A stretch of DNA of 64,000 bases, taken from IMG/VR virus record IMGVR_UViG_3300042398_001385, positions 89,315 through 153,314 of that record. The stretch is one strand, 5' to 3'. This DNA comes from a virus. The position numbers and the translations under genes are program-made. Each line of letters begins with the position of its first letter. The stretch's first letter is position 1. The notes below the pieces were generated by a model. That model was given only the letters and a program-made list of their open reading frames with translations. It was not told the DNA's origin and ran no database searches. This document shows, in pieces, positions 54,526-54,952 of this stretch.

Positions 54526-54952
54526 CTTAGTGTCGTTCTGAGAAAATCGATTTCGAGGATTTTTCGAGTCTAACAATATATGAAGTATCTCAAAATCCCG
54601 CTTCAGAACAATTTTAAATCCGAGAATATTAGTGAAAGGCGTTTTTTCTTTTTTCCTAAATATTGAAGTAACCATTCACACCGCTTCGGAGTTTATATAA
54701 TTTTTTTCTTGAGAAATCTCTAAAGAGTGGTCCCTCCTTATGGGAGGTAATCATTCCCTCATTTCTAGTCTGGTGAATTAAACCGAGCTACTGATTTTTC
54801 TCTTATGTCCTTTCGTAAATAAGAGCGCCTCATCTATAGCAGTACTGAGACCTGTGTAGATTAGAACCGGAGAACTAATCTTTTTCTGCGTTTATAATTT
54901 TTGAAGTAACCCTTTAAACCGCTTCAAGAAAAATATGTATGTTAAAGAACGT
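54526..54952 (-). ncRNA. Candidate Y-RNA-like structured RNA upstream of Ro60
   Basis: A transcript of about 430-450 bases bounded by a TTGAAAC/TATATTAATA promoter and an intrinsic terminator, without a useful open frame. It contains three copies of the 23-base hairpin GAAGCGGN..GGTTACTTC (54582-54604, 54665-54687, 54903-54925), a perfect hairpin GATTAG...CTAATC near 54860-54880, and a segment resembling a tRNA D-arm (AGTAGCTCGGTTTAAT). Bacterial Ro genes usually sit beside Y RNAs that contain tRNA-like modules, so this is a natural partner. No known family was assigned, and the exact ends are uncertain. Confidence 0.6.

Follow-up and report, generated by a model that had tools for sequence, protein, structure and literature searches.

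In the Y RNAs of vertebrates and of Deinococcus, a lower stem, an internal loop and an upper stem serve the binding of the Ro protein. Excerpted sources describe Ro60 as binding the bulge of the Y RNA stem-loop and, in a review, bacterial Ro (Rsr) as binding the stem while the other end of the RNA tethers PNPase. Review text also ascribes D, T and acceptor arms and transfer RNA (tRNA)-like modification to YrlA, and the excerpt of the ARTEMIS paper gives the Salmonella YrlA structure (6CU1) as circularly permuted relative to tRNA. In phages, the excerpted report on Listeria phage CKA15 (PMC12282133) places Rsr/Ro near tRNA genes, proposes abundant nearby noncoding RNAs as Y RNAs and cites Chen 2014 for mycobacteriophage Rsr/Ro with proposed Y RNAs; that excerpt gives no motif, fold or covariation for them and no tRNA grafts. 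Both the existence of phage Y RNAs and the mimicry of a circularly permuted tRNA by YrlA are already known.

Here we describe an RNA element present in four copies, all on the minus strand, in a window of 64,000 nucleotides (nt) covering positions 89,315 to 153,314 of the 153,314-base IMG/VR virus record IMGVR_UViG_3300042398_001385. On the evidence of its linkage to Ro and its resemblance to YrlA, the element is very probably the Ro-binding stem of phage-encoded Y RNAs. We read the window set as one Y RNA of ~237 nt and two minimal ones beside Ro, with a further minimal one flanked by tRNA-Val and tRNA-Asn. The copies are classed as Y RNAs because of linkage and fold, and are not classed as members of YrlA because the window copies have no tRNA domain and none of the scores reached the cut-off. 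Less expected are that minimal copies lie in tRNA arrays, that one copy has a large domain unlike tRNA and that relatives, though not this phage, have tRNA grafts of ordinary order.

Architecture and covariation of the element

Each unit consists, in order, of a lower stem, a conserved internal loop (GAAGCGG / TTCTC), an upper stem and then GTTACTTC, the conserved entry into the loop. The nine bases after GAAGCGG (N9) pair with nine bases a few nt 5' of TTCTC, giving a variable upper stem of ~9 base pairs (bp), and the lower stem joins the sequence preceding GAAGCGG to the sequence following TTCTC. The internal loop is asymmetric, with AGCGG on its 5' side facing A/T-rich bases and TTC on its 3' side, and is closed by invariant GA/TC pairs. 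Such a two-part stem of paired ends around a conserved internal loop is the general arrangement of a bacterial Y RNA.

Both helices were present in 107 of 119 distinct copies, against 18% (range 8–25%) in a control where the 5' halves were swapped among copies. The fixed-geometry test was applied to 57 of the 119 copies, which left 53 rows once identical ones were dropped, the rows not being picked for pairing. Here 78.4% of the cells were paired against 55.9% after shuffling, double-change cells numbered 256 against 100, and covariation reached 0.603 against 0.205; sliding the register by 1–3 columns lowered pairing to 39–52%. Two-sided changes were found at all 9 upper-stem pairs and at 6 of the 8 lower-stem pairs, the remaining two lower pairs being invariant.

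The minimal copies of the window are compact hairpins. Copy B (54616..54693, minus strand, as are all window features below) has a core of 66 nt (54687–54622) with its 23-mer at 54665–54687, and its N9 (54680–54672) pairs with 54639–54631. In copy C (54534..54610; 65-nt core 54604–54540; 23-mer 54582–54604) the N9 at 54597–54589 pairs with 54557–54549, the upper strands being GATTTTGAG and CTCGAAATC, and in copy D (41918..41999; 70-nt core 41993–41924; 23-mer 41971–41993), which lies in tRNA array 1, 41986–41978 pairs with 41941–41933. The loops of these three copies measure 24–29 nt and have no recognised tRNA-like body.

Copy A (54700..54936, 237 nt with outer stems; 23-mer 54903–54925) is a large unit whose upper strands, TTTAAAGGG and CTCTTTAGA, are distant in sequence, with a 175-nt loop between them. 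An inner 9-bp stem joins 54918–54910 to 54727–54719, and an outer stem is formed by TTTTTCTTGA and TCAAGAAAAA. The true 3' partner is CTCTTTAGA-GATTTCTC at 54727–54711, not the neighbouring TTAGTTCTC, and the unit is therefore 215 nt long (54700–54936 with outer stems). The inserted domain carries a T-loop-like GGTTYAATTC; the loop gave no tRNA call, plain or doubled, and no permuted tRNA was seen among the window copies. In relatives, large domains of ~105–190 nt likewise occur just 5' of Ro. Among 16 such RNAs aligned together, copy A included (alignment A3; six more were aligned separately as A4), 20 of the 25 pairs predicted by RNAalifold have both partners changed in one sequence or more, and for RNAs of the copy A type RNAalifold support is limited to the two stems, outer and inner, and a pair of hairpins. 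An unconstrained fold of the whole intergenic RNA contained the stems of A, B and C together with a terminator-like hairpin.

The initial annotation had placed four 23-base elements on the minus strand, three beside Ro and one inside tRNA array 1, and these placements are borne out: over the whole 153,314-base record a relaxed pattern returned exactly these four copies, and a reversed pattern returned none. What it called a variable loop is instead one strand of a helix, the N9, with compensated pairing, and its CGCC-like core is only the form that the variable 3' strand takes in copy B. The total length it proposed, 56–70 bases, holds for the cores of B, C and D and fails for the 215-nt unit of copy A; moreover, A, B and C fold as separate units, and not as parts of one Ro-linked RNA fold.

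Linkage to Ro and likeness to known Y RNAs

On the minus strand of the window, a thioredoxin gene is followed by a 0.5-kb intergenic region with copies A, B and C, a terminator-like hairpin with a T-run (54493..54526, 3' of copy C) and the Ro gene (52835..54466). Copies A–C stand directly 5' of Ro, beside the gene as looked for in a bacterial Y RNA, and copy D lies ~11 kb away in its tRNA array. The hairpin was identified from the sequence and from the fold of the intergenic RNA, and was absent from the output of a terminator scan. The Ro gene encodes 543 amino acids with TROVE and von Willebrand A domains. Its product matches PF05731 at 33.9 bits (E 2.7e-8; Pfam cut-off 23), which identifies it as a TROVE protein, and phrog_850 at E 1.2e-38. 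As phmmer against PDB sequences gave 0 matches, a fold search was needed: with an AlphaFold2 model of mean pLDDT 81, all 13 Foldseek matches at E ≤ 0.001 were Ro/TROVE, confirming the Ro fold. The Ro60 of Thermus phage phiLo (PDB 9l5y) has the same fold (Foldseek E 8.9e-14) at 20% identity. The record belongs to a contractile-tailed phage, in which a tail sheath and a DnaB-type helicase were identified; among the matches listed, the nearest relatives of the helicase are those of Prevotella Lak phages (38%).

The distribution of the element follows that of a single clade of Ro (TROVE) protein. Searching with the Ro protein returned 46 viral loci (numbered with the prefix L) which, with phage G (51% identity), make 47. 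The motif occurs in 39 of these, with a copy ≤1.5 kb 5' of Ro in 30, and of the 8 motif-less loci, 3 (L035, L037, L044) have a model match at E ≤ 0.001. Any Ro match is found in only 83 of 50,697 records of the phage collection. Conversely, the DNA pattern alone retrieved 50 distinct records, of which 29 encode this Ro, including 12 of the 12 above 100 kb, and a third pattern scan, for tRNA-bearing copies, added six new records with this Ro in 3. In bacterial genomes (genome_contigs), 34 pattern matches were obtained; the 4 with both helices, from Flavobacterium sp. 9AF, a Chitinophagales metagenome-assembled genome and two Ruminococcus metagenome-assembled genomes, all lie beside a Ro of the same clade, which Pfam TROVE missed in 2 of the 4 genomes and the clade alignment found. 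The 30 matches failing the helix test were treated as chance, the rough hand estimate for the pattern being ~29.

For model searches we used a covariance model (R1) built on 19 of 34 listed rows drawn from 48 well-paired minimal copies, a training set thereby biased to paired copies and leaving out large-loop, permuted and graft copies. In a control of 30 genome loci with chance motif matches, the best score was 23.1 bits (E 0.003). An unfiltered run over the window gave 79.4, 74.2 and 71.4 bits for copies B, D and C, which are themselves among the training rows, 21.8 bits for copy A, and 12.5 bits for the next best. Across the whole genomes of the four bacteria, 10 of 10 matches lay ≤0.6 kb from Ro. 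In 12 whole Ro-phage records, 36 of 37 matches lay ≤12 kb from Ro, a zone of 0.29 of 2.83 Mb (10%). Phage G (L048) has four tandem matches directly 5' of its Ro gene gp540 (406669–407173 of NC_023719.1) and two more within 4 kb, with no RNA annotated there in the stretch listed.

The initial annotation had proposed testing whether matches to a covariance model cluster with Ro genes or tRNA arrays, and they do cluster with both. Its proposal of a protein- or RNA-binding module rather than chance is supported on the protein side, in that the element is conserved, covaries and tracks Ro; the argument it gave, a fixed length with a variable loop, does not.

Among known Y RNAs, YrlA (RF02553) is similar in being a Ro-linked RNA whose two-part stem closes a domain. 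Its consensus reads GAAUGC, helix, CUAC and 3' AAACUUGUC, and that of the phage family GAAGCGG, helix, UUAC and AAUAUUCUC. YrlA-like circular permutation is found in relatives (phage G 3728, L018 2569, L054, L004 and L030), whereas no tRNA-like body is recognised in any of the four window copies. The RF02553 alignment to one permuted copy spans its full length and takes in the stem (34.3 bits); below cut-off, RF02553 also aligns over 1–114 in L018 and 23–86 in phage G. The excerpted review lists D, T and acceptor arms for YrlA, while several permuted phage copies have an anticodon-arm-like hairpin. With vertebrate and Deinococcus Y RNAs the phage copies share the lower stem, internal loop and upper stem, but they differ in their constant bases, have no Rfam match and sit in tRNA arrays.

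Alternative readings and proposed mechanism

The position of A, B and C directly 5' of Ro, together with a copy within 1.5 kb 5' of Ro at 30 of 47 Ro loci, would also suit a cis-acting leader, in which the Ro mRNA carries the three copies in its 5' leader as sites where Ro binds to repress its own synthesis. We consider this unlikely, since the terminator-like hairpin stands between the copies and Ro, copies are also found 3' of Ro (L028, L030, L032–L034, L044, L116, L119), and others sit in tRNA arrays away from it, as does copy D. A repeated mobile or neutral (REP-like) element that happened to spread in phage tRNA arrays would account for the several copies per genome, the tandems and the varied places. 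It is nevertheless very improbable: the constant bases alone are common to the copies, the stems differ and compensate, all 10 bacterial and all but one of the 37 phage model matches lie by Ro, and none occurs in three phages without this Ro clade or with a distant Ro only.

The 23-mer could also be drawn as a local 4-bp GAAG/CTTC hairpin resembling a D-arm, that is, as a tRNA-arm mimic with a truly variable loop. Three of its four pairs are invariant, most copies have the GGTTA or GTTA seen in D-loops, and one window copy sits in a tRNA array. However, the sole varying column pair is broken in 12 of 53 rows and compensated in 0, while the long-range helices compensate in 256 cells, which makes a local hairpin scarcely credible; as a D-arm mimic it was rejected on pair counts.

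Several observations weigh against the element being the Ro-binding stem of phage Y RNAs. Twelve of the 119 copies fail the helix test, and the short copies do not stand out when each is folded as a single sequence (z −0.44, −1.55 and −0.97). Two Ro loci have weak model matches only (L047, E 0.007; L031, E 0.011), and in three more (L025, L042, L046) the matches are no better than E 0.57, L025 and L042 being cut at Ro. The one far match of the 37, at 13091–13170 of G009 (the record of L057), is strong (56.5 bits) and lies 86 kb from Ro. No model match was found in crAss001 or SRB7757, which have a distant Ro only, nor in a third phage in which no Ro was found. RF02553 did not exceed its 69-bit cut-off in any of 12 records (best 36.2 bits), its weak matches also occur in 13 of 14 control genomes, and it had no match in the window. 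At E ≤ 10, Rfam returned only chance-level families over 54450–55000 and no Y RNA family; RF00019, the vertebrate Y RNA family, was not among these matches.

Mechanistically, if the element is the Ro-binding stem, Ro would recognise its constant parts, and the variable stems would need only to pair. The content of the loop would then determine the cargo attached to the Ro particle: none that is recognisable in B, C and D, a structured domain of ~175 nt in A, and a tRNA-like body in relatives. Copies A to C are probably transcribed together, as a unit that precedes Ro and ends at the hairpin and T-run, and copy D would probably be freed from the array transcript by tRNA processing, because there is too little space for a promoter or terminator of its own. 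By analogy with known Y RNAs, the phage RNAs may gate the Ro ring and, in the infected cell, steer RNA quality control or a nuclease of the host. RNase PH-domain proteins (PNPase) were found in 0 and RtcB in 1 of the 12 Ro-phage records, and the partner would therefore be a host enzyme.

With this combined signature of sequence and structure, Y RNA genes can be called among the RNAs that neighbour a phage Ro, in bacteria as well as in phages as large as Bacillus phage G. It also indicates that a phage maintains more than one such RNA, that their loops differ and that some are probably made as cargo of tRNA arrays.

tRNA arrays, tRNA-like loops and tRNA grafts

Gaps of 1 nt and 5 nt separate the outer stem of copy D from tRNA-Val(tac) (42001..42074) on its 5' side and from tRNA-Asn(gtt) (41840..41912) on its 3' side. 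The same two tRNAs flank a copy in L008, L022, L072, L083, L092 and L102; in L004 and L006 they flank two copies in tandem, and in other phages a copy is bracketed by tRNAs for Tyr and Gln, by two for Leu, or by those for Gln and Thr. A tRNA gene lies ≤60 nt from 32 of the 107 helix-positive copies, and on both sides in 11, some of the tRNAs counted in L028, L032 and L034 lying inside neighbouring copies. Archaeal clusters of TROVE and tRNA genes are an independent tie between Ro and tRNA arrays, a TROVE gene being present in 20 of 29 archaeal tRNA gene clusters in the excerpt of PMC6333295. As separate observations, two spacers between tRNA genes of the window (42628–42767 and 41678–41752), outside the four model copies, have a structured look on inspection, and a ROOL RNA lies in the tRNA array of L030, a phage with Ro (7809–8452; RF03087, 284 bits).

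Loops are shorter than 45 nt in 55 of the 107 copies, the other groups being read from the listed loops. Rfam labelled none of the copies in the scanned stretches, save for tRNA bodies in some loops. A cloverleaf of normal order lies inside the loop in L028, L032, L033 and L034. Permuted tRNAs occupy it in L004, L006, L018, L030, L048 (phage G, with CCA encoded), L054, L060 and L089, where the T-arm and acceptor 3' strand come first and the acceptor 5' strand and D-arm last, with a linker between the two parts in L004, L018, L030, phage G and L054. ARAGORN on doubled loops called a tRNA in seven permuted copies (L004, L006, L018, L048 and three of L054). The anticodon-arm-like hairpin kept by several permuted copies uses, as read from the sequence, the TTC of TTACTTC in its 5' strand.

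In four phage lineages, all with Ro, the stem appears in reversed order (TTCTC, a short cap, GAAGCGG) inside a tRNA of ordinary order, after the D-arm; such grafts are found in relatives and not in the window phage. They lie on the minus strand at 20320–20458 (L028), 14140–14271 (L033), 5367–5495 (L057) and 13548–13681 (L064), and score 51.5, 50.6, 48.9 and 42.8 bits with the Rfam tRNA model (cut-off 29 bits). Unconstrained folds contained the acceptor stem and the Ro-stem pairing in all four, with a standard T-arm in 3 (not L028) and a standard D-arm in 3 (not L064). As read from the sequences, the caps are of GNRA type and close differing stems; three are the tetraloops GTAA, GTGA and GAAA, and that of L028 is GTAAA. 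A strict pairing test was passed by L028, by L033 (via its near-identical relative L056) and by L057, and was failed by L064, whose unconstrained fold comprises the acceptor stem, the Ro stem, the GAAA cap and the T-arm.

The tRNA-like parts thus come in three topologies: a whole cloverleaf in the loop, with the Ro stem at the acceptor end; a permuted tRNA in the loop, as in YrlA; and a tRNA of ordinary order with intact ends. Unlike the permuted YrlA, the grafts keep ordinary order and their own ends, with the Ro stem between the D-arm and the anticodon side. Non-permuted tRNA/Y RNA hybrids were not found described in a literature search that missed some primary Y RNA papers and is weak in this respect. 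Tentatively, the arrays might make Ro-tethered tRNA mimics in these three topologies, of which the ordinary-order grafts may be processed, CCA-tailed and modified in the manner of tRNAs and yet carried by Ro, acting towards anticodon nucleases of the host as decoys or as sensors; such grafts would plausibly link tRNA with YrlA. The grafts make the origin and use of tRNA mimicry by Y RNAs directly testable, and among the ideas so opened is that the tRNA-like part of YrlA might compete for an anticodon nuclease, as raised in the excerpted text of PMC7790460.

Further tRNA-like genes accompany the grafts on the minus strand of two of these loci. Those at L057 5980–6109 and L064 13040–13169 carry a diverged Ro-like stem in the same place (TTCCC / GTGGCGA, still with CAGTTACTTC), and in those at L057 5727–5854 and L064 14619–14722 long hairpins of another kind are inserted into the anticodon or the variable region.
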